Origin: Tichowtungia aerotolerans
GTDB lineage: Bacteria; Verrucomicrobiota; Kiritimatiellia; Kiritimatiellales; Tichowtungiaceae
Reading direction: 5' to 3'
Assembly: GCF_009905215.1 (NCBI RefSeq)
Contig: NZ_CP047593.1
Coordinates: 682,001 to 746,000 of the forward strand
Length of the DNA: 64,000 nucleotides
A program made the position numbers and the translations under genes. Below the pieces are notes generated by a model, which saw nothing but the letters and a program-made list of their open reading frames with translations, was not told where the DNA came from and ran no database searches. Below are positions 10,589 to 31,562 of the stretch, one piece after another; within the stretch, counting starts at the first letter, position 1, and each line of letters starts with the position of its first letter.

Positions 10589-11941
10589 ATGGGATTGGAA
10601 ATCCAGAAAAAGAAAGATGGTTCACTGAAATCCAACTGGTGGTATGGACGGTTCGAGATGGACGGAAGAAACCACTGCATAAACCTCGGTGTGGAAATCA
10701 AGGGCCGAATTCCGAAGACGCTGCGCAAACAAGGCGATACGGCGTTTGAATGCTCCCGCACACTGGCAGGGGCAAAACTAAAAGAACTGCAGTCAGAAGC
10801 CCGCAACACAAAGACCGCAAAACATCATTTGCAGGAACTGTATGAAATCAAGGCTGGAGAGGACATTGCCCTGATCCCACTGAAAGAACTGGAAGCGCAC
10901 TGGGAAGTGATTCCGTCCAAACGGAAACGAGCAACTCAGCAGACAAAACGACAAAAAGCGAGCATCCGTCAGTTCCGAGAGTTTATCGAGGCAAATTTCC
11001 CGGCAGCGACGCTGATGTCGCAGATTACCCGCCGAATGGCGCTGGGCTGGATGAAAGACATCAACGACAAAGGAATGTCTGCCACCAGTTACAACGTGAA
11101 GCTCTCCCTGCTCCGGGGAATTTTTGAACAGCTCGGGCCAGAAGCGGGCGTAATCGCCAATCCGTTTGCGGGCATTCCGTACCGGGCTTTGAACACGGTT
11201 CATCGTCAGCCGTTCACTCAGGAGGAACTAAACCAGATCCTGAACCATTGCGACCCGATCCTGCGTCCGGTGGTGCTAACAGCTATGTGCACAGCGATGC
11301 GGCGCGGTGACTGCTGCCGGCTGAAATGGGAGTCGGTCGACATGGAAGGCGGCTTCGTAACCGTGAAAACCTCAAAAACCGGAGAAGTAGCCGAAATCCC
11401 GTTATTCCCGGCTCTCCGTTCAGAATTGGAGCACCTGCCCCGCGTCAGCGAGTTCGTTTTTCCCGAAGCCGAGGAAATGTATCGCACGAACATACATGGG
11501 TTGTCGTGGCGTTTTAAGAAGGCTCTCAAAAATGCCGGAATCACCGATACAGTAGTTGAGCGAGAAGACACCCGCATGAAAGCGAGCGTAAAAGATTTCC
11601 ACTCCCTGCGCACCACCTGGATTACAATGGCGCTCTCTGCCGGAGTCCCGATGGAATTGGTTCGGCGCGTCACCGGACATTCAACGGTTGACGTGGTATT
11701 AAAGCACTACTTCCGGCCCGGCAAGGAGGCCTTCAAAACCGCGCTCGAAACCGCCATGCCGAAGATGCTGACCGGCGGGGGCGAAGAAGCCCCGGAGACA
11801 GAAGCCGAAGATCAAAAGTCAGACGACAGCAACCAGGAGCTGCTCAAGAAAATACGCGGACTGCTCGAATTCGGTGAGGATCTGGAAAAGGACGCAATCC
11901 TCAGACGACTGGCAGAGATAGAGAAAGAATTAGCCGCATGA
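10589..11941 (+). CDS. Prophage tyrosine recombinase (integrase)
   Basis: A 450-residue integrase of the lambda/XerD type, catalysing site-specific integration and excision. The catalytic set is visible: Arg in TAMCTAMRRGD near residue 237, His and Arg in HSLRTTW near residue 337, His in TGHST near residue 363, and the nucleophile Tyr in LKHYFRPG near residue 374. The N-terminal half is the arm- and core-binding region. About 70 extra residues, acidic and probably helical, follow the catalytic Tyr. AGGAGG lies nine bases before the ATG. Its place right after tRNA-Val suggests integration into that tRNA, although no second attachment site was found. Confidence 0.92.
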   Translation: MGLEIQKKKDGSLKSNWWYGRFEMDGRNHCINLGVEIKGRIPKTLRKQGDTAFECSRTLAGAKLKELQSEARNTKTAKHHLQELYEIKAGEDIALIPLKELEAHWEVIPSKRKRATQQTKRQKASIRQFREFIEANFPAATLMSQITRRMALGWMKDINDKGMSATSYNVKLSLLRGIFEQLGPEAGVIANPFAGIPYRALNTVHRQPFTQEELNQILNHCDPILRPVVLTAMCTAMRRGDCCRLKWESVDMEGGFVTVKTSKTGEVAEIPLFPALRSELEHLPRVSEFVFPEAEEMYRTNIHGLSWRFKKALKNAGITDTVVEREDTRMKASVKDFHSLRTTWITMALSAGVPMELVRRVTGHSTVDVVLKHYFRPGKEAFKTALETAMPKMLTGGGEEAPETEAEDQKSDDSNQELLKKIRGLLEFGEDLEKDAILRRLAEIEKELAA

Positions 11942-13539: not shown

Positions 13540-13584
13540 CGAATTTTCGTTATTGGTTATTTTTGATTGGTTATTGGGGGAGAA

Positions 13585-21580: not shown

Positions 21581-21836
21581 TTCCGAGGGCTGGAATTTTT
21601 TCATCCGAAGGTTGGAAGCAGGCTGAGCCTGCACCCAACAATTTTCCGAGCGTTGGAAAAAACGGCACCTCGTTTTCCGGGCTCTGGAAAAATTCGAAGA
21701 CTTTTTTCCGAGGTCTGGAAGAAATGGGAGTCCGCTTTTCCGAGGACTGGAATTTTTGCGGCTGCTTTTTCCGAGCATTGGAAAAATTGCAGGCCGTTTT
21801 TCCAGACCTTGGAAGGATTTTTTCCAAGGTTTGGAA
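21581..21836. repeat. Array of nine helically phased TTCCRANNNYTGGAA palindromes
   Basis: Copies begin at 21581, 21603, 21644, 21675, 21706, 21738, 21769, 21800 and 21822. The spacings are 22, 41, 31, 31, 32, 31, 31 and 22 bp, all close to whole multiples of 10.5 bp. The consensus is TTTTCCGAG-NN-TGGAAAA; arms are conserved while the ~16 bp between copies are unrelated. This is an iteron- or operator-like array, not a CRISPR, because the unit is a short palindrome and the spacers are shorter than the repeat. It lies between the small-subunit-like gene and the structured RNA region. Confidence 0.85.
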
Positions 21837-23724: not shown

Positions 23725-23960
23725 AAACAGACTCCGGCGTAGAGGGTGACAAGTGACAAAACGGCAAAAACCAACGACACCGAGAAAGCGCCCTGCAGGA
23801 AGGGGAAATGTCGTAATGACATATTATGACATCTATATATAAATAATATAGATATAGGAAAAAGCGCCCGCCGTGCAGGGTGTGAGAGTCTGAGGAAAGC
23901 TTCACAGGCTTTTTTCAACGTGATGTCATACGTCAGAATGTCAAAAAGGGGCGTGTTCAT
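23721..23960 (-). CDS. Small membrane protein in the prophage
   Basis: A 79-residue protein starting MNTPLFDILTYDITLKKACE with a good GAAGGAG ribosome binding site. A hydrophobic C-terminal segment (FPFLQGAFSVSLVFAVLSLVTLYAGVCL) suggests one membrane helix. It overlaps the end of the primase/helicase gene by 20 bp and the start of the sigma-4-like gene by 4 bp. An A/T-rich block (23820-23860) inside it could hold a promoter for the downstream gene. Function unknown. Confidence 0.55.
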   Translation of the reverse strand: MNTPLFDILTYDITLKKACEAFLRLSHPARRALFPISILFIYRCHNMSLRHFPFLQGAFSVSLVFAVLSLVTLYAGVCL

Positions 23961-26103
23961 TGGTGTCTCCTTCAGACAGTTTTTTGATATTGATGATCCA
24001 AGAACGCTTAGTGCCGGTACGCGTCTGCTCAAGGGGGTAGCCTTGGGATGCGAGCTTAGACAATTCGCGACCGACCTGACGTGTTGTGTACTTGGCCGCG
24101 ATACCGGCAAGACCGTCCTGATCGTTAAGCATGGCGGAAAGCAGCTCGGTGGCGGATCCCGTCCAGACATCGGAAACCTGCCCCTCGAAAAACTTCAGCA
24201 AAACCTCAAGGAATGAATAGGCACTGGATGAATGACGTGCCGCCTCGAACAGGGAAGCCTCACAGTACGTTTGAACACCGTACCGGGAATCACCCAGGAC
24301 GTGATCAGGCGGTGACCAGTCGAGAAGCCAGCGCAGGAAAAACGGCAACTCCGCATGAATGATTTCCGCAACATCGTTGGGAAAGGTAAAGGTATCCCGC
24401 TCCGCCACACGGAAGAGATTGATTTTGTCGCGGTTCGACAAATCCACGTCGGGCAGAATACGAATCGACTCCGGGTCGGTGTTGCAGGTCACCACCACTC
24501 TGCCATTCCATTCGATCAACTTGTCCACGCGATATTTCTCGCGGACCGAGAAAGTACGGTTGGCCGCCATCTTTTTGATCAGGGCGGAAAATTTCATATG
24601 GGATTTGTTATCGGTCAATGGAACGACATCGTCGACCGCCCAGACTGCGGACTGGAATAGGTGGGAGTTAAAACCGTCCTCACCGGACAAAAACGACGAA
24701 GCATCAATATGGCCTCCGAAAATACGGGAGAGAATTACTGAGGACAGAAGTGTTTTTCCAGAGTTCGGAACACCGGCAAAGAACGACGCCTGACCGGGAA
24801 GCATTTTCCCGTCGAGAGCCGAAGAGTACCACCGGCGCAACCAGGCAAGGAAGTATTCCAACTGTTCGGCGGGGTCGAAAAGCGTTGAGAAATAAGACGC
24901 AAGCCAAAGAAACCCCGGACAGGTGTCAGGAGTCAGGGGACAGGGATCGGAAGACTGTGCGGATGCAGATGAGCAGACAGGAGTGTCTGCTCCACCTTCT
25001 GCAGGCTGCATGACAGAAGCGGTCGAGGTGTTCAAAACACGCAGACCGTTGACGTGAACGATACCTTTCGGACGATGTACCAAGGGGGCCGCACAGGCGA
25101 TGTACTGCTGTTTTTGTATCCGGTGAATCGCCTGATCCACTGCACTGAATGCCGCACCACGGGGAACCGTAGAGGTCAAACCGCGCTCGACCTTCAGGTG
25201 CAAAGCGATGTCTGATTTGTTGTATGCCTGCCACTGGTCGTTGGAGAGTTTTGTCCAATAATCGCGCCCGTCGAAGAATACTTCGGACACGGCCCCGCCG
25301 ATACGATCAGATTCAAACTGCCGGACAAACTGATGACCCAGAATCGCCGCCCAGGGGATAAACGCCTGCCCGCCGGTAAAACACTGCATGCCGGACTCGC
25401 GCACCACCGCCGCTGTTGCATTGTCGGCAGACGAATCCCAGAAGCGGACACCACGCACACCAATTTCAAATTCACCCTGCCAGACACCGGGATATTGTTT
25501 TTGCACTTCGTCCGCGATCAGCTCGATGGGGATCACCGGACCGATTTTTTTCCATGCGTAGTTATGGGTTGATTCAATCGCCCACTGCATCATCAGAGGT
25601 GCCGGGATCACATCATCAGATAAATGCTGCCACTGCGTACCCGCCTCGTAATATTTACAGGGATCAGAAAAGGCTTCCGCATCGAGACCGACCAGGATTT
25701 TTGAGAGCTTGAGTTTTTTCTTAACGTGCTTGAGCAGCTTCGCCGTCAGATCATTTTTATGCAGCGGGAAAGGTTGTTCCAGTTTCCACAACAGTCGCGC
25801 TCCCCCGGAAAAGGTACGGCAGATGTACTGGGGTTTGAAATCCCCACACCGTTCCAAAACCGTATCGCGCATGTTTTGATTTATGTCGCCGTCATAATCG
25901 GCAACCAGCCAGTGCAGAAAGACCGCCGGATTGTTTTTGGAATCAATGCGGGATGCGGCAATCAGACCTTCGAGACCGGAGTAAAAACAGTGCTCCACAT
26001 CGGGTTTGTTCCATTGGGTTTTCTGAAGCGCATGGGTAGAGATATTCCACGGCTCGCACTCGGTTGCATGACAACACGAGAGATTTTTGATGGATAAAAA
26101 CAT
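23941..26103 (-). CDS. Primase-polymerase/SF3 helicase (phage replication protein)
   Basis: A 720-residue fusion. The N-terminal part (about residues 1-190) resembles AEP primase-polymerases, with LVADYDGD (DxD metal site) near residue 69 and RTFSGGARLLWKLE near residue 95. The C-terminal part (about 400-650) is a superfamily 3/D5-like helicase: Walker A GVPNSGKT, Walker B AVWAVDDVV, sensor VVVTCNTD. A linker around residues 365-395 is encoded by a REP-like element and degenerate repeats (GADTPVCSSAS...DPCPLTPDTCPG) and is probably disordered. AAGGAGA precedes the start. It initiates phage DNA replication together with the family A polymerase encoded just upstream. Confidence 0.85.
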   Translation of the reverse strand: MFLSIKNLSCCHATECEPWNISTHALQKTQWNKPDVEHCFYSGLEGLIAASRIDSKNNPAVFLHWLVADYDGDINQNMRDTVLERCGDFKPQYICRTFSGGARLLWKLEQPFPLHKNDLTAKLLKHVKKKLKLSKILVGLDAEAFSDPCKYYEAGTQWQHLSDDVIPAPLMMQWAIESTHNYAWKKIGPVIPIELIADEVQKQYPGVWQGEFEIGVRGVRFWDSSADNATAAVVRESGMQCFTGGQAFIPWAAILGHQFVRQFESDRIGGAVSEVFFDGRDYWTKLSNDQWQAYNKSDIALHLKVERGLTSTVPRGAAFSAVDQAIHRIQKQQYIACAAPLVHRPKGIVHVNGLRVLNTSTASVMQPAEGGADTPVCSSASAQSSDPCPLTPDTCPGFLWLASYFSTLFDPAEQLEYFLAWLRRWYSSALDGKMLPGQASFFAGVPNSGKTLLSSVILSRIFGGHIDASSFLSGEDGFNSHLFQSAVWAVDDVVPLTDNKSHMKFSALIKKMAANRTFSVREKYRVDKLIEWNGRVVVTCNTDPESIRILPDVDLSNRDKINLFRVAERDTFTFPNDVAEIIHAELPFFLRWLLDWSPPDHVLGDSRYGVQTYCEASLFEAARHSSSAYSFLEVLLKFFEGQVSDVWTGSATELLSAMLNDQDGLAGIAAKYTTRQVGRELSKLASQGYPLEQTRTGTKRSWIINIKKLSEGDTNEHAPF
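24973..24995 (-). repeat. REP-like hairpin inside the primase/helicase gene
   Basis: GCAGACAG pairs with a GTGTCTGC arm; the foot is GTGG on the minus strand. It is read in frame as part of ADTPVC. Confidence 0.6.
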
Positions 26104-26113
26104 GATGGTCTCC

Positions 26114-28102
26114 TTATTTGGTGTAGTGGGTAAAAATTCCGGCTTCGGCATCGACGGGACATCCGGAGAGCCAGTCCGGTGTGGTGCGCATGATTTCGAG
26201 GATTTGTTGTTTTGCTTCCTCTGCCTGCGCTTTGGGAACTTCGACGATCACTTCGTCGTGAACGTGAAAAACAATTCGTCCAATGTCTGAACGGTGTATC
26301 TGCAAAAGGTGTTGTGCGAACAGATCCCGGGCGGTGGCCTGGACAAGATTTTCGCAGAGCAGTCCGCCGTAGAGACTGCGATCCCGTCCGCCTCGTACTG
26401 TTTTGGCGGCGAAGTATCCACGGGGAGTTTTCCGAACATCGAAATATTGAAGGTGTCGTCCAGACGGCAGCTCGATTGCGTAGTCCCCGCCGGCACTGCG
26501 TTTGAAGTCGCGATCCAACCGTTTCCAGAGTCGGGAAATTTTCGGATTCTTGGATCGGAAGTCGGCAACGGTTTGTTTGGCATCGGCGAAGGAGAGTTCA
26601 ATACCACCCAGATTTTTGGCGACTGTAACAAATTTTTTCGGGCCGCATCCGTATCCCAATCCCAGCACTCGCGCCTTTGCCAGTGATCGCATGGCAGGAT
26701 CTTTTTCTTTCAGAGGCTCGGGATCACTGTATCCCATCGTTGCCCGCGCATGGGCTTCGTAAATATCCACACCGTTCCGAACGAGAGACAAGAAATCATG
26801 GTCATCAATCAGCCATGCCAAAATCCTGGGTTCGATCTGAGACAGGTCGGCAATGACAAACACACATCCATCCGAGGGTTGGAAACACTTCCGTAAATTG
26901 GCACCGAACATTTCACCTCTCGGCATGTTCTGCACATTGAATCCGGCATCACCGGACCAACGACCCGGTACCGCACCGAAGTATTTGAGGGAATACGGGA
27001 AGACCATTGGCTTTAGGCTTTGGGCTTTAGGAGACGGTGCGGGTTGCTCTGCGGGGATAGACAGGCTGGAAGCCTGTCCTACGTTCGGTGTGTCTGCAGG
27101 TTGCAAGCGGGACGCTTGCGCTACTTTAATGCGGTTGCGAATGGTGTAAAACCGGGAGAGCAGCATATTGGTCCGGCGGAAAATGCGCATCGCATTCACC
27201 CAGGGATACTCAGCGCCGTATTTGTTTTCCCACTGTTCACAAAGCGGGGAATCCATTGCCAATGATGCAGGCGCCGGAATGTTTGCTTTTCGACATTCGA
27301 GCGCAAGCTGGCGACGGGAAAGCGGTGTATCTTCTGTGAAATCTTCCACCCACGGCAAAAGCTGAACCGCATCGAACCGCTGTTTCTCCAAGGTCTGGAT
27401 ACTTTTTTCCAGAGTCTGGAAATCGACAGTGATGCCCGCCTGTCCCCATTCAAAAGTTAGCGTCGATAATTCCTGCTCCTCCTCCGGCCAAAGGTGATTG
27501 TATTTTTCCCATAGCAGATAACAAAGCCGCGCATCTTCGAGTGCGTAATCTAACATTGCATTGTCTTCGAACAGATCCCCGGTGGTCTGACCGCACGCGT
27601 TGCTTCGCTGGGTTTTATCCACCTCGATTCCCAAAAGCTGTTTGCACGCGCCTTTCAGGTTTCGGGGTGCCTGAAGGTAAACCGCCATCGAGGCGGTGCA
27701 TCGCCACCCGGCAGGTTGAAGCGGCGGAATGATCTTCTGTTCCTGAAGTCGTTTGAAAACCAGAGAGTCGAAGGCTGCGTTGTGAGCAAGCAGCAACGCA
27801 CCGTTTAGTTTTTCCCAGGATTGGAAATCTTTGGGGTGGCCAACCCAGCGGAACAGAGTTCCGGGTGCAGGAGTGTCAGGTGTCGGGTGGCAGGTGTCAG
27901 AAGGCGGACGGCTCGGAGATCCGTCCCTACCATCAACAACCCCATAAACGGACATGAGATAGGCGTCAAATTTCGGATGGTGAACATAGCTCCACGCATC
28001 CATTTTTTTCAGGGAGTAGTCCTTGTCGTAGTAGGTTTCGAAGTCCACGGCCAAAGTGGCCGGGACAGTTATTTGTGATTGGTTATTGGTTATTTGGTTC
28101 AT
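26114..28102 (-). CDS. Phage family A DNA polymerase with 3'-5' exonuclease
   Basis: A 662-residue polymerase I-like enzyme. The exonuclease begins VDFETYYD near residue 20 (DxE site). The polymerase motifs are A DLSQIEPRILAWL near residue 430, B RSLAKARVLGLGYGCG near residue 475, and C FHVHDEVIVEV near residue 610. It lacks a 5' nuclease domain, as typical phage enzymes do. Two segments look like repeat insertions tolerated in frame: residues about 54-77 (DGRDGSPSRPPSDTCHPTPD) and 325-365 (two REP-like hairpins, QASRLQPADTPNVGQASSLS). The first codons (NQITNNQSQIT) come from a degenerate repeat. It ends 11 bp before the primase/helicase start. Confidence 0.92.
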   Translation of the reverse strand: MNQITNNQSQITVPATLAVDFETYYDKDYSLKKMDAWSYVHHPKFDAYLMSVYGVVDGRDGSPSRPPSDTCHPTPDTPAPGTLFRWVGHPKDFQSWEKLNGALLLAHNAAFDSLVFKRLQEQKIIPPLQPAGWRCTASMAVYLQAPRNLKGACKQLLGIEVDKTQRSNACGQTTGDLFEDNAMLDYALEDARLCYLLWEKYNHLWPEEEQELSTLTFEWGQAGITVDFQTLEKSIQTLEKQRFDAVQLLPWVEDFTEDTPLSRRQLALECRKANIPAPASLAMDSPLCEQWENKYGAEYPWVNAMRIFRRTNMLLSRFYTIRNRIKVAQASRLQPADTPNVGQASSLSIPAEQPAPSPKAQSLKPMVFPYSLKYFGAVPGRWSGDAGFNVQNMPRGEMFGANLRKCFQPSDGCVFVIADLSQIEPRILAWLIDDHDFLSLVRNGVDIYEAHARATMGYSDPEPLKEKDPAMRSLAKARVLGLGYGCGPKKFVTVAKNLGGIELSFADAKQTVADFRSKNPKISRLWKRLDRDFKRSAGGDYAIELPSGRHLQYFDVRKTPRGYFAAKTVRGGRDRSLYGGLLCENLVQATARDLFAQHLLQIHRSDIGRIVFHVHDEVIVEVPKAQAEEAKQQILEIMRTTPDWLSGCPVDAEAGIFTHYTK
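27060..27124 (-). repeat. Two tandem REP-like hairpins inside the DNA polymerase gene
   Basis: 27060-27082 (GACAGGCTGGAAGCCTGTC plus foot GTAG) and 27103-27124 (GCAAGCGGGACGCTTGC plus foot GTAG on the minus strand). Different stems, same layout, both read through in frame. Confidence 0.7.
27386..27421. repeat. Two phased palindromes inside the DNA polymerase gene
   Basis: Copies start at 27386 and 27407, 21 bp apart (two helical turns), encoding the repeated QTLEK of the polymerase linker. A single further copy lies at 27812-27826. Confidence 0.75.
27905..27930 (-). repeat. REP-like hairpin inside the DNA polymerase gene
   Basis: GGACGGCT pairs imperfectly with ATCCGTCC; GTAG foot on the minus strand, in frame as DGRDGSPS. 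Confidence 0.6.
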
Positions 28103-28160
28103 AAAGCCGGTTTTCACAGAAGGGAACTAAGGAAAGAAAGAGCCCCCGAAGCGCTGGAAC

Positions 28161-28182
28161 GCGACAGGGGCGTCGCGTCTAC
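28161..28182 (-). repeat. REP-like hairpin with GTAG foot
   Basis: GCGACAGGGGCGTCGC stem and GTAG foot on the minus strand, lying in the gap before the polymerase gene. Confidence 0.55.
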
Positions 28183-28184
28183 AA

Positions 28185-29078
28185 TCAGAGAAGCGTCGTG
28201 ATGAATTCGATGAACTCATCGACATGCTTTCCGTGCTGACGCAGACGCGGGACATAAACCAGGTTGGTGCCGAGTTTTTCCCGGCGCACCTGAAGCGTCC
28301 ATTTGCCTTTATGCAGCTCGGGCAGTCCGGTTTCTTTGTTGCGCAGTGCGAACCGGGCGGCGGTGTTGATCGCCTTCCCTGCCCGGCTGTAGGCCGAACC
28401 TTTCATGGTCCAAAGAGCCAGTTCGTAGGCTTTACCGTCCGGTCCCTGAATCGAGAACTCTTCGGCCAATTCAGCCGACGGTGCTTCGACCAGCACCAGC
28501 GCGGTGAGCATCGGGCGCCACGGCGGTTTCTCGTCGTTACGCCAATCGATCCAGCCCCCGCGCTCATGAACTTCATCGAGCGTGTCCACTGTTTCCGGGG
28601 TTTCGTCTGAATCATACGGCAGATTTTCCGAGAACTGCTTTTTGGCGTTCAGCACTGTGACATTGAGCGGCTCGCCCCAGGTCTTCGGATCGGTCGATGC
28701 CGCCAGAACAATGATGTCTTTGTTCAGCACAACCGCACCGGGATCGAAATCCTCGGAGAGCGGGCCAACGCTCTGGACGATGTTGATACGAGGAAGGCGG
28801 AAATCCGATTCCTCGTAATCGCCGGCAATGCCACCAATTCCGGGAAGATCTCCAGCCGCCTTCGCAGGAAGCTCCGGCGAGCCAACGGAGGTCGGAGGAC
28901 AGAGGTCAGAGGTCGGAGACCCACCCCGCCCTTCGGGCACCCCTCCGCCGGAGGGGATCTTTGCGGGGACAGACAGGCTGGAAGCCTGTCCTACTTTCTC
29001 TGCGGGTTCGGACGAGGCAGGCGAGACGCCTGCGGTACTTTTTTCTTCTTTTTTGAACGATGTTGTTTTTGTGGTCAT
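28185..29078 (-). CDS. Phage replication-module protein of unknown function
   Basis: A 297-residue soluble protein in the replication/recombination block, next to nuclease and polymerase genes, where single-strand-binding or recombination accessory proteins are usual. Its conserved-looking core starts near residue 90 (LPRINIVQSVGPLSEDFDPGAVVLNKD) and runs to the end without a catalytic motif. Residues about 10-65 look foreign: two REP-like hairpins and degenerate repeats encode AGVSPASS, VGQASSLSVPAK and GVPEGRGGSPTSD. GGAGAAAG lies before the ATG at 29078. A DNA-binding role is a guess from context. Confidence 0.5.
   Translation of the reverse strand: MTTKTTSFKKEEKSTAGVSPASSEPAEKVGQASSLSVPAKIPSGGGVPEGRGGSPTSDLCPPTSVGSPELPAKAAGDLPGIGGIAGDYEESDFRLPRINIVQSVGPLSEDFDPGAVVLNKDIIVLAASTDPKTWGEPLNVTVLNAKKQFSENLPYDSDETPETVDTLDEVHERGGWIDWRNDEKPPWRPMLTALVLVEAPSAELAEEFSIQGPDGKAYELALWTMKGSAYSRAGKAINTAARFALRNKETGLPELHKGKWTLQVRREKLGTNLVYVPRLRQHGKHVDEFIEFITTLL
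28972..29038 (-). repeat. Two REP-like hairpins inside the 297-residue gene
   Basis: 28972-28994 (same stem as 27060-27082, foot GTAG) and 29016-29038 (GGCAGGCGAGACGCCTGC, foot GTAC on the minus strand). Confidence 0.7.
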
Positions 29079-29098
29079 TTTTCTTTCTCCTTTAATTA

Positions 29099-29124
29099 GG
29101 GCGACCACGGGGGATCGCCCGTAC
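29099..29124 (-). repeat. REP-like hairpin (GTAC variant) between phage genes
   Basis: GGGCGACC pairs with GGATCGCCC (one mismatch); foot GTAC on the minus strand. It occupies almost the whole gap between the nuclease and the 297-residue gene. Confidence 0.65.
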
Positions 29125-29126
29125 TG

Positions 29127-30197
29127 TTATCTTTCTTTTGCTAGATAGGTGATGTCGGGGTCGGTCATGCAGAGTCCCTCTGCTGTCAGAAGCTGGTTGA
29201 GCTTCCGAATCGCTTTAGCCCCCTGCCCTCGTTCCTGAATGGATTTGACCGCTTTTTCCAGTGAAGTGACCGAGATCGAACAGGCGGGAAGGAACTGCTC
29301 CAGCGGCAACGGAAATTCCGTGCTAACTATTTCCCATACAGCGGCAAGATCCTTCAGTACACGCCGTCCGCTGCGGTGTTTGAGTTCGTAGCCGGGAATT
29401 TCCTGCCCGCTGCGCACCATTTCCAAGGCATGGGCTTTGACGGCATCGGCCCACTCGATCAGGACGGGTGCCAGGCGAAGAGCCAGCGCCATCTGGTCAG
29501 GCTCGGCGATCTGGAGCGGATCCATTACCGCCGGGAGTTCCAGCCGGTTCGGCAGCTTTTCGGCTACCATCATTGCCTTGGCTGTCAATGCCGGACAGGT
29601 GGCTTTGGCTCCGCAGTACTGGCAGTTGTCAGGATGCGGGCTGTACGGACTGTTCGGGTCTTCCGCCTTTTCGATCACGGTAGCGACGCGATCACGCATC
29701 CGGTCATAGTCAGCAGAGCGGGTGAAGGTGTGTTCTGTGCGCAGATCGCAACGCGGCTGCAGAAACACCACCTTGACCGAATCGACACCAAACAGGTCGA
29801 ATACGCCAAGGGCGTATGCCCAGCCCTGAAGGTTGACCTCCGCATCATCGACCGGGACACGCCCCATTTTGTAATCAATGACGGTTGCGGTGTTCGTGCC
29901 GATGATAACGACATCGGCAGTGCCGAAAGTCAGCCCGCAGATATCGACCTGCAATTCGGTGTAGCGAATTGCTCCGGGGATTTCCGATTGCAGCTCGTCG
30001 ACCGCATCCAGGCACTCACGCACCTGGGCGATTTGCTCAGGGTTGAGTCCATCGAGACGACCGGTTTCGGCCGCCCCGTGCATCATCGTTCCCTCATCAG
30101 CGGCCTCGGATGAACCGGGGCGATTTTGCCAATGGGCGCACAGCTCTTTGTTTTTCAGCGAGCTGGGGCCATGCTTTGCGTGGAGTTGATTTGTCAT
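29127..30197 (-). CDS. RecB/Cas4-like nuclease (DUF2800)
   Basis: A 356-residue protein of the DUF2800 family of phage PD-(D/E)XK nucleases. The catalytic centre is visible: FGTADVVIIGTNTATVIDYKMGR near residue 120-145, giving the D...DYK signature. A cysteine group NCQYCGAKATCPAL near residue 218 could hold an iron-sulfur cluster with one further Cys, as in Cas4/AddB. It would process DNA ends for recombination. GAGGAG precedes the ATG at 30197; a longer frame upstream has no such signal and reads through the next gene's region. Confidence 0.82.
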   Translation of the reverse strand: MTNQLHAKHGPSSLKNKELCAHWQNRPGSSEAADEGTMMHGAAETGRLDGLNPEQIAQVRECLDAVDELQSEIPGAIRYTELQVDICGLTFGTADVVIIGTNTATVIDYKMGRVPVDDAEVNLQGWAYALGVFDLFGVDSVKVVFLQPRCDLRTEHTFTRSADYDRMRDRVATVIEKAEDPNSPYSPHPDNCQYCGAKATCPALTAKAMMVAEKLPNRLELPAVMDPLQIAEPDQMALALRLAPVLIEWADAVKAHALEMVRSGQEIPGYELKHRSGRRVLKDLAAVWEIVSTEFPLPLEQFLPACSISVTSLEKAVKSIQERGQGAKAIRKLNQLLTAEGLCMTDPDITYLAKER

Positions 30198-30207
30198 AAA
30201 AAACTCC

Positions 30208-30471
30208 TCAATCGCCTTTGAACATAAAGATGAACCAAGCCTGAGCACCCCGGAAGTAACAGGCACAGAAACAGGCAAAGAGCCCATCTCCAATCGATGT
30301 GTCCTGCACGACTGCAGCTGTGACCACAGCCCAAAGAAGTAGCTCAAAAATGATGATTGCCAACGCCAGCAAAATGCGGCGGGTGATCAGTTTTCCCGAA
30401 GAACGGGTGAGTTCCTCGCGGACCTCGTCGGTGATCTCTTTTTTCAGTTCGTTTTTGTCAATGGTTTCCAT
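30208..30471 (-). CDS. Small two-helix membrane protein in the prophage
   Basis: An 87-residue protein starting METIDKNELKKEITDEVREEL. The first 30 residues are charged. Two hydrophobic segments follow, ALAIIIFELLLWAVVTAAVV and DGLFACFCACYF. It lies 10 bp upstream of the DUF2800 nuclease gene. Such small proteins in early regions can be superinfection-exclusion or regulatory peptides, but the family is not recognised. Confidence 0.5.
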   Translation of the reverse strand: METIDKNELKKEITDEVREELTRSSGKLITRRILLALAIIIFELLLWAVVTAAVVQDTSIGDGLFACFCACYFRGAQAWFIFMFKGD

Positions 30472-30517
30472 AGTTGAATCTTTCGTTATTGGTTATTTGG
30501 AATTGGTTATTGGGAGA

Positions 30518-30541
30518 GACAGGCTGGAAGCACTGTCCTAC
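30518..30541 (-). repeat. REP-like hairpin with GTAG foot
   Basis: GACAGGCTGGAAGCACTGTC, a variant of the 27060 element with an inserted base, in the gap next to a degenerate GGTTATT repeat (30482-30514). Confidence 0.65.
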
Positions 30542-30572
30542 GTTGGTGGGCCGCGGGCTGGATGAGCTTTAT

Positions 30573-31031
30573 TCATGATTCGCCCTCTTGCGCTTTAAGA
30601 TCTTCGGAGCGGCGTTTGAGAAGCCGGTGGATGTCCCGGGCTGCGCCAAGCGCATCGCCGGAGAAAATGGCGTGAACATCGAAGTTGTATTCTAGCTCGC
30701 TGAGCTGGTGAAAAATGAAGGTAGCGCCGACCCGACCACGGGTAAAAATAGAATAATCGAAGAGCTCGATGTCCTCGCGGCAGGCTTCGACGACGTAGAA
30801 TAGACGCGGGAATCCGACGGCATGGACGCGGCGGATTTTTTTCAGCTCACGAATCCAATTCTTCTGGATGGCCAGCGACTGAATCAGATCGGGCAGCGAT
30901 TTGCGCTCGACGGCGAAAAAGTCCTGGTCGCCTTCGATGGCATAGTCGAACGTGCCGATGGTTCCGCGCACGGTGGCACAGTGTTCGAACGCCAACGGAG
31001 TCTGCTCTCTTGTATCGATTCGAATCAGCAT
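30573..31031 (-). CDS. ERCC4-type nuclease
   Basis: A 152-residue protein consisting of a single ERCC4 nuclease domain. IRIDTREQTPLAF at the start and DYAIEGDQDFFAVERKSLPDL near residue 30-50 give the GDx(n)ERKx(3)D-type catalytic pattern, here GDQDFFAVERKSLPDL. Archaeal and phage versions cut branched or flap DNA. There is no helix-hairpin-helix tail, so it may need a partner for DNA binding. It overlaps the preceding 84-94 residue gene by 7 bp and lies in the recombination/replication block. Confidence 0.85.
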   Translation of the reverse strand: MLIRIDTREQTPLAFEHCATVRGTIGTFDYAIEGDQDFFAVERKSLPDLIQSLAIQKNWIRELKKIRRVHAVGFPRLFYVVEACREDIELFDYSIFTRGRVGATFIFHQLSELEYNFDVHAIFSGDALGAARDIHRLLKRRSEDLKAQEGES

Positions 31032-31279
31032 GATGCACCGCCTGTGACAGGAGAGTTTTTAACCGCGAAAGAACGTGAATGGGCGCGAATTGAAGACGGT
31101 ACGGATGAAGGATCACAGACAGGAGTGTCTGCGCCACAAGGAGACGGTGCGGATTCAAAGTTTTTGGACGGGTCGCCGGAATAGAAATCGAATTGAAATT
31201 CGTGCCAAAGATCAGCGATGGCGGCGGAGTCGCCTTCACGGGCTTTTTCGAGAAGCTGGATAAAACGGGGATCAACCAC
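31025..31279 (-). CDS. Small phage protein with a repeat-derived tail
   Basis: An 84-residue protein if the GTG at 31279 is used, which overlaps the stop of the upstream DNA-binding gene (GTGGTTGA) and suggests coupling; an ATG at 31309 is the alternative. The first half (VVDPRFIQLLEKAREGDSAAIADLWHEF) is a helical, acidic domain. The second half contains a REP-like hairpin (31116-31137) read as GADTPVCDPSS, and a degenerate repeat. The tail is therefore probably not functional sequence. Family unknown. Confidence 0.45.
   Translation of the reverse strand: MVDPRFIQLLEKAREGDSAAIADLWHEFQFDFYSGDPSKNFESAPSPCGADTPVCDPSSVPSSIRAHSRSFAVKNSPVTGGASC
31116..31137 (-). repeat. REP-like hairpin inside a small phage gene
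   Basis: CAGACAGGAGTGTCTG, the same stem family as 24973-24995, with foot GTGG on the minus strand, again read as ADTPVC. Confidence 0.65.
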
Positions 31280-31562
31280 GGGACACCGCCTTCCCTCTGG
31301 CGAGATCAAGCACGTCAGTGCGACGTAACCGGAAGGCGTTGGGGTAAATTTCGATCTTGGTCAAGCGACCGGCTTTGATAATGCGCCAGAGCGTCGCTCT
31401 TGAGCACGGGATCAGCTCGCACGCCTCCCCCATTGTCAGGAACAAGGGCTCGTTGCTATCTGCGGGGAGTTCTTCTCCGCGAAGAATTTGTAAGGCCCGT
31501 TCTTTGGCTTCGTCGGTGGCAGCGAAGACCGCCTGAATGATTTGTTCGTCTGTCACTGTCAT
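31272..31562 (-). CDS. MerR/excisionase-type helix-turn-helix protein
   Basis: A 96-residue protein with an HTH_17-type winged helix (about residues 42-92): LTMGEACELIPCSRATLWRIIKAGRLTKIEIYPNAFRLRRTDVLDLA. Such proteins are excisionases or small phage regulators. GGAGG lies ahead of the ATG at 31562. It is the only candidate excisionase in the prophage and lies far from the integrase, at the early end of the leftward block. It may control early transcription or excision. Confidence 0.7.
   Translation of the reverse strand: MTVTDEQIIQAVFAATDEAKERALQILRGEELPADSNEPLFLTMGEACELIPCSRATLWRIIKAGRLTKIEIYPNAFRLRRTDVLDLARGKAVSRG

Follow-up and report, generated by a model that had tools for sequence, protein, structure and literature searches.

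How does palindromic DNA come to be read as protein inside the replication genes of a phage? The question is raised by a prophage of Tichowtungia aerotolerans in a stretch of 64,000 nucleotides (NZ_CP047593.1, positions 682,001 to 746,000; hereafter the window) within a 3.88-Mb single-contig genome. An earlier note, made from the sequence alone, had claimed that elements resembling repetitive extragenic palindromic sequences (REPs) are translated in frame in four phage genes, with the peptide ADTPVC read in both the primase/helicase and a 94-aa open reading frame (ORF), and GQASSLS in both the DNA polymerase and a 297-aa protein. All of the named elements and both pairs of readings were found, with every frame intact, together with TAGVSPA, an element beyond those spelled out in the note. 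In total, six stem-loops tagged with GTAG, GTAC or GTGG, and a seventh with an imperfect stem, lie in frame in four genes, and all of their tags are on the coding strand. We conclude, at a probability of roughly 0.78, that these segments are REPs of the GTAG superfamily, accompanied by heptanucleotide DNA, that were inserted in prophage genes, and that insertions which kept the frame in loops survived and are now translated as flexible linkers. Movement by a REP-associated tyrosine transposase (RAYT) and uptake in another host would account for their arrival.

The comparison proposed in the earlier note, with homologous phage proteins lacking the segments, was carried out on alignments of up to 12 modules, which included two further related modules elsewhere in the same genome (G000b and G000c; three modules in total). 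Homologues without the element carry a linker of 2–13 residues instead, and the segment without the element was found in none of the homologues compared, which supports the view that palindrome insertion created new protein segments. The primase site is a 13-residue linker in six of 11 homologues and measures 29–55 residues in the other five. Site 1 of the polymerase has 2–6 residues in 5 of 12 homologues and 21–32 in the remaining seven; site 3 has 8 residues in V42271 and 23–47 in the other 10 of 11 measured; and site 4 has three residues in seven of nine measured, and 33 and 46 in two. Rows with non-matching anchors were excluded from these counts, namely, G003 (sites 3 and 4), V42271 and V42261 (site 4) and four modules from metagenome-assembled genomes (primase). 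The polymerase homologue of G003 (L057) is broken by a TAA inside the match, and this prophage thus looks degenerate.

One site holds different repeats in different phages, and one element turns up in different genes or sites. Within the window, GTAGGACAGGCT is present in both the polymerase and the 297/307-aa protein. GTAGGGACGG with a TGACACC tail occupies polymerase site 1 in the window and site 3 in V37044, and site 3 of V28581 has the same peptide as that encoded by the V37044 element. GTAGCCGAGGGC was detected at polymerase site 1 of G029 and, by its peptide VAEGRDLG, at site 3 of V42261. A non-REP element, ..KRSDPTG.., is carried by the G000b polymerase and the V42271 primase; it reads DL.Y.ESAF..DKRSDPTG.RQ in frame in the L051 polymerase and the V42271 (L083) primase, which belong to different phages.

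The tetranucleotide at the foot of the listed elements is GTAG, GTAC, GTAT or GTGG, as in the GTAG superfamily, and their stems of 6–9 bp and loops of 3–4 nt lie within the ranges of that superfamily (stem 5–13 bp, loop 2–20 nt). Several inserts are composite, with heptanucleotide arrays of the TGACACC, TGACCTC and TAAAGCC types besides the hairpin, so that what is foreign in the proteins extends beyond the hairpins. By eye, the arrays are broken where an in-frame TGA would come, as in the polymerase stretch TCT GAC ACC TGC CAC CCG ACA CCT GAC. A 39-nt repeat rich in TTGGTTATT heptamers was also observed at 13545–13583 and 30481–30519 of the window (90% identical), and the copy at 30481 adjoins a decayed REP.

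The genes that carry the elements are under purifying selection, with a ratio of non-synonymous to synonymous substitution rates (dN/dS) of 0.065–0.148 at dS 0.78–1.25 (four genes, three comparisons each). Low dN/dS at dS of about 1 indicates genes that look functional, and from these values the perfect elements are probably young. In the structure prediction of the polymerase, residues 329–401, around insertion site 3, have a predicted local distance difference test score (pLDDT) below 50, in a model that is weak as a whole (mean pLDDT 59); the inserted segments fall in low-confidence, probably disordered regions.

The density of tagged hairpins was compared with that expected by chance, using a scan for stems of at least 7 bp. 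Five matches were detected in the 7.7-kb module and none in the 53.4 kb of the window scanned outside it, while 400 kb sampled evenly from the host genome gave 12 matches against 11 under a Markov null. In view of this enrichment over the host (Poisson P = 4.6e-6), chance palindromes were rejected. The REP GTAGGGACGGATCTCCGAGCCGTCC, with its imperfect stem, was missed by the scan. A 400-kb sample of Pontiella sulfatireligans F21(T), which together with Pontiellaceae bacterium B12227 is among the relatives of the same order used for comparison (a kinship that puts the genome in the Kiritimatiellota), contained 13 tagged hairpins (null, seven), and the 20 kb around its phage module contained eight, of which seven had the tag on the coding strand of the module.

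The host genome holds few copies of these families. Exact copies number three for GTAGGACAGGCT, five for GTNNCGCAGGC and three for GCRGACACTCC, and seven of these 11 lie in the three modules, which make up 0.56% of the genome (Poisson P = 6e-13). In relatives, the REPs are multicopy and dispersed, as expected of the GTAG superfamily. Copies of the GTAGGACAGGCT family within one mismatch number 29 in G029 and 24 in G032, both congeners, often as inverted pairs, and any copy at that threshold was found in five of 194 genomes of the phylum. The GTNNCGCAGGC family, to which the TAGVSPA REP GTACCGCAGGCGTCTCGCCTGC belongs, was detected in 31 of 43 genomes of the order; P. sulfatireligans has 34 copies, four of them in its phage module. 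The families also stand beside transposase genes: GTAGGACAGGCT, GTA(C/T)CGCAGGC, GTATCGCAAGC and GTAGACGCGACG adjoin RAYT genes in relatives, GTAGGACAGGCT REPs bound a RAYT in xseA of G029, and GTATCGCAGGC/GTACCGCAGGC REPs bound RAYTs in hypF of G032 and in P. sulfatireligans. The RAYT subclass of the relatives had no match in the T. aerotolerans genome at 1e-12.

Host genes of relatives carry the same REPs in frame, and even the transposase, indicating that such insertion is not confined to phages. In G029, a RAYT flanked by the GTAGGACAGGCT REP sits inside a 647-aa ORF that is otherwise the exonuclease VII large subunit (XseA), with the left REP read VGQASSLS and the right REP read DRLEACPT. 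We examined 27 Y1_Tnp matches picked for a long open frame, and a second protein family shared the frame in every one of the 27: it was PriA in 12 cases, a B12-binding radical SAM protein in seven, CCA/poly(A) polymerase in two, and XseA, HypF, TatD, a CmoB-type methyltransferase, diphosphomevalonate decarboxylase and a Fic protein in one each. REPs were present on both sides of the RAYT within the ORF in 26 cases, the right REPs of the TatD case following the stop. The catalytic HUH motif was retained in all 27, and the tyrosine in 26 (His in L194). The subclass as a whole was detected in 114 of 387 genomes of the phylum; among the 150 matches listed, the open frame reached 450 aa or more in 54 and stayed below 300 aa in 87. 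Four more long-frame cases involved PriA of G127 (same genus) and, outside the order, two Eco57I-type methylases and one adenosine deaminase. In a separate observation, another type of Y1 transposase gene (L198, G000:C1:2060000–2066000, and L199) has REPs in frame inside it, read ATCMSPVR and similar.

The PriA 3'-binding domain was detected in 34 genomes of the order, and in 16 of these a RAYT shares its frame (Pfam confirmed 13 and coordinates the other three), including G029, G032 and P. sulfatireligans (priA L191, L194 and L229 are among the loci); of the remainder, G195 has a long frame only, 14 have PriA of normal length and three a PriA cut short. The RAYT lies between two domains, occupying in the aligned cases the linker that separates 'KKQL.VSL' from '.PKQ', and is joined by REP-encoded linkers; PriA of T. 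aerotolerans is of normal length, with the linker KKQLTVSLVNSNAKEAGNLICEDLTDKQ at this place. The RAYT within PriA gave dN/dS of 0.06–0.16 (the three of five pairs with estimable dS), similar to PriA itself (0.08–0.15, five pairs). The structure model of PriA–RAYT was weak, with a mean pLDDT of 59.5 and a predicted template modelling score of 0.32. Foldseek with this model recovered PriA and no RAYT among the best 50, and when PDB sequences were searched by phmmer with the RAYT portion, weak transposase matches alone were obtained.

A second regularity concerns orientation. The homologous genes of 16 modules contain or adjoin 27 tagged hairpins, 25 of them with the tag on the coding strand; a few of these 25 sit in gaps between genes, and both antisense exceptions are in B12227a, one of them within conserved coding sequence. 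For comparison, we used 96 copies of a single REP family in relatives, 48 of which fall within ORFs that are 200 aa or longer, not all of them proven genes: 26 were sense and 22 antisense. Fisher's test of phage against relatives gave P = 0.0013 for a phage count of 23:2, which is below the 25:2 tally, 2.5e-5 for 23:0 and 5e-4 for a conservative 16:0. A rule based on replication direction was also considered. For unpaired REPs in relatives, the tag strand was the C-rich strand in 49 of 65, contributed by 18 of 18 in G050 (L174–L189 and L126; unpaired REPs with clear skew), 16 of 23 in G195 and 15 of 24 in other genomes, where the tendency was weaker or absent. Coding-strand skew varies among modules (8 of 11 negative); prophages a and c of the host genome are co-directional with the forks inferred from skew, and b lies near the terminus. 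No rule was drawn from these data, because one genome carries the signal, it is opposite to the tag first expected on the lagging-strand template, and the module skews are mixed.

Taken together, these observations suggest a mechanism in which a RAYT (TnpAREP), an HUH transposase, would have moved REPs as single-stranded DNA, acting on single-stranded coding DNA and leaving the REP behind, with only in-frame copies within permissive loops persisting. Such movement is suggested by the relatives' RAYT genes, which are flanked by REP families found in the phage. Since the host has few copies and is without that RAYT subclass, the phage may have acquired the elements, or met the transposase, in another host. 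TnpAREP is strand-specific, the GTAG serving as guide, and altered tags shift the cleavage site, as described in excerpts of PMC8266576; the single orientation in phage genes could follow from action on one strand only.

Several points weigh against this interpretation. The patterns for the copy counts were taken from the window, so that one copy of each lies in a module by construction, and without these seeds the count is four of eight. No matching RAYT was found for the GTGG (ADTPVC) family GCAGACACTCC. REPs of relatives often form inverted pairs on the chromosome, the arrangement of REP doublets (REPINs), but no inverted pair was found in the phage genes, where REPs are single or in direct order, and plain REPIN insertion is thus no explanation. 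RAYTs are not known to move heptanucleotide arrays. Some modules share sites by descent, and the 25 sense hairpins are accordingly not 25 independent events; the two antisense hairpins of B12227a were kept in the count, and one looks like chance. The transposition is itself inferred.

Three other explanations were weighed. If the segments were ordinary variable linkers, with palindromes arising by chance or codon bias in low-complexity coding sequence, their position in low-confidence, probably disordered regions and the chance-level frequency of tagged hairpins in the host sample would be expected; however, identical 23-nt elements in two unrelated genes with dozens of copies in relatives, the density in the module against the 400-kb sample, and the recurrence of one element across distinct proteins of separate phages, with identical elements also in intergenic DNA of hosts, make this highly improbable. 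Recombination or template switching with REP-bearing DNA, with loops merely tolerating the patches and no transposase involved, would fit the single or direct order of the phage elements, unlike the inverted pairs at many host loci, as well as the insertion of non-REP heptamer arrays and the ..KRSDPTG.. element at the same loops or genes, and a TAAAGCC tail nearly identical in the window and G000c despite dS of about 1 elsewhere. The strict one-strand orientation fits a strand-specific transposase of single-stranded DNA rather than general recombination, and whole RAYT–REP units also occur in frame in host genes, for which reasons we regard recombination as unlikely.

The orientation could, on the other hand, reflect selection for the peptide or RNA produced and not the mechanism of insertion. 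The sense frames V.QAS.L and AGV.PA are small and polar, and phase 2 (YRRRPAC) is absent from phage coding sequences, as such selection would predict; yet AGGTPAV, the antisense reading, is no less bland and occurs in ORFs of relatives, and the near-even strand ratio in those ORFs contrasts with that in phages. We consider a selective origin of the orientation doubtful, though somewhat less so than recombination.

Table 1. Features of the window that bear on the in-frame REPs
Feature	Position	Strand	Details
Primase/helicase gene	23941..26151	-	DUF5906; PHROG DNA primase
Family A DNA polymerase gene	26114..28117	-	PF00476
297-aa protein gene	28185..29078	-	ATG start; 307 aa from GTG at 29108
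94-aa ORF	31025..31309	-	N-terminal half conserved
Whole foreign primase segment (AEGGADTPVCSSASAQSSDPCPLTPDTCPGFL)	24907..25002	-	REP and heptanucleotide-type array; protein alignments, coordinates by hand
REP GTGGAGCAGACACTCCTGTCTGCTC, primase/helicase	24971..24995	-	Read GADTPVCS; GTGG tag, 9-bp stem, 4-nt loop; absent from 6/11 homologous primases
Polymerase insertion site 3	27002..27130	-	About 43 residues: two REPs and TAAAGCC heptamers; coordinates by hand
REP GTAGGACAGGCTTCCAGCCTGTC, polymerase site 3	27060..27082	-	Read VGQASSLS
REP GTAGCGCAAGCGTCCCGCTTGC, polymerase site 3	27103..27124	-	Read VAQASRL; same orientation as neighbouring REP
Polymerase insertion site 1	27854..27940	-	29 residues: REP and TGACACC heptamers; coordinates by hand
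REP GTAGGGACGGATCTCCGAGCCGTCC, polymerase site 1	27906..27930	-	Read GRDGSPSRP; imperfect stem
Untagged GC-rich hairpin CCCCTCCG/CGGAGGGG	28940..28956		Read IPSGGGVPE; variable N-terminal region of 297/307-aa protein
REP GTAGGACAGGCTTCCAGCCTGTC, 297/307-aa protein	28972..28994	-	Read VGQASSLS
REP GTACCGCAGGCGTCTCGCCTGC, 297/307-aa protein	29017..29038	-	Read TAGVSPA
Decayed copy of GTAGGACAGGCT REP, intergenic	30518..30541	-	Same orientation; coordinates by hand
REP GTGGCGCAGACACTCCTGTCTG, 94-aa ORF	31116..31137	-	Read GADTPVC; near C-terminus

The prophage has an integrase gene at 10589–11938, tail, major head, head protease, portal and terminase genes at 13.6–21 kb, and its replication module on the minus strand at 23.9–33.8 kb of the window. 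A single-protein scan of viral contigs with the polymerase gave no match, and the alignment-based scans gave four contigs each. Outside the module, a 21-nt motif, CCGGTTGATTnnGCCTCTTTA, was observed on the minus strand of the late region (18028, 18568, 19746 and 21287), near a start codon in three of the four cases and possibly a phage promoter or regulatory site. Seven TTTCC..GGAA palindromes lie at 21643–21836, mostly spaced by 31 bp; this motif occurs 21 times in the window, outside the phage as well.

The earlier note had likened the elements to the Rickettsia palindromic elements (RPEs). This likeness holds for the manner of insertion, in that palindromic DNA in frame in protein genes adds a new segment, and fails for the class. 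According to excerpts of PMC3733652, RPE-4 and RPE-6 of R. conorii are equated with intragenic CGTC-type repeats, and RPE-1 is a longer palindromic insertion, whereas the window elements are GTAG-type REPs of 22–25 nt, linked to RAYTs in relatives; RPE membership was thus ruled out. A closer precedent is the intragenic GTAG REPs published in 2013 by Di Nocera et al., which in the same excerpts are in-frame tagged stem-loops, many in replication or repair genes, with pairs encoding 20–30 residues, Opitutus terrae, a verrucomicrobium, having the highest number of such repeats, and with GTAC and GTAT as tag variants and GTGG reported for O. terrae. The genes concerned there are cellular, and 'phage' occurs in those excerpts only in relation to CRISPR; here, phage genes, repeated use of the same loops and a single orientation are involved. 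As in the REPtrons described in parts of PMC6006769 and PMC8266576, the RAYTs of relatives have HUH and Y motifs and are flanked by REPs, and the motifs NHVH, WQ and YI..NP of the in-frame RAYTs are nearest to subclass 2.7 as given in the former. In-frame REPs inside tnpAREP itself are described there for subclass 2.4; the RAYTs found here differ in sharing the frame of unrelated host genes, among them PriA, XseA and HypF. The open-access literature searched yielded no account of REPs within the proteins of phages or of a RAYT placed in frame in PriA; relative to that literature, the occurrence in a phage, the single orientation and the transposases in frame appear to be new.

These findings would mean that a gene-dense phage tolerates mobile DNA by carrying it as translatable elements in loops of essential enzymes; such insertions serve as experiments that nature has repeated on a DNA polymerase and on a primase. 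Speculatively, the REP transposase may, in this branch of Kiritimatiellota, have settled in frame as a domain of host proteins, PriA foremost; maintained by purifying selection and tethered to the machinery of replication restart, it would insert REP ends into coding strands exposed at forks; phage replication genes would then be a preferred target, and REPs in phage loops, a possible marker of past hosts, would record earlier hosts. RAYTs in frame with other genes, which a published survey had left aside as errors or fusions, are under strong purifying selection inside PriA, and the old question of what role RAYTs play for their hosts thereby becomes testable.

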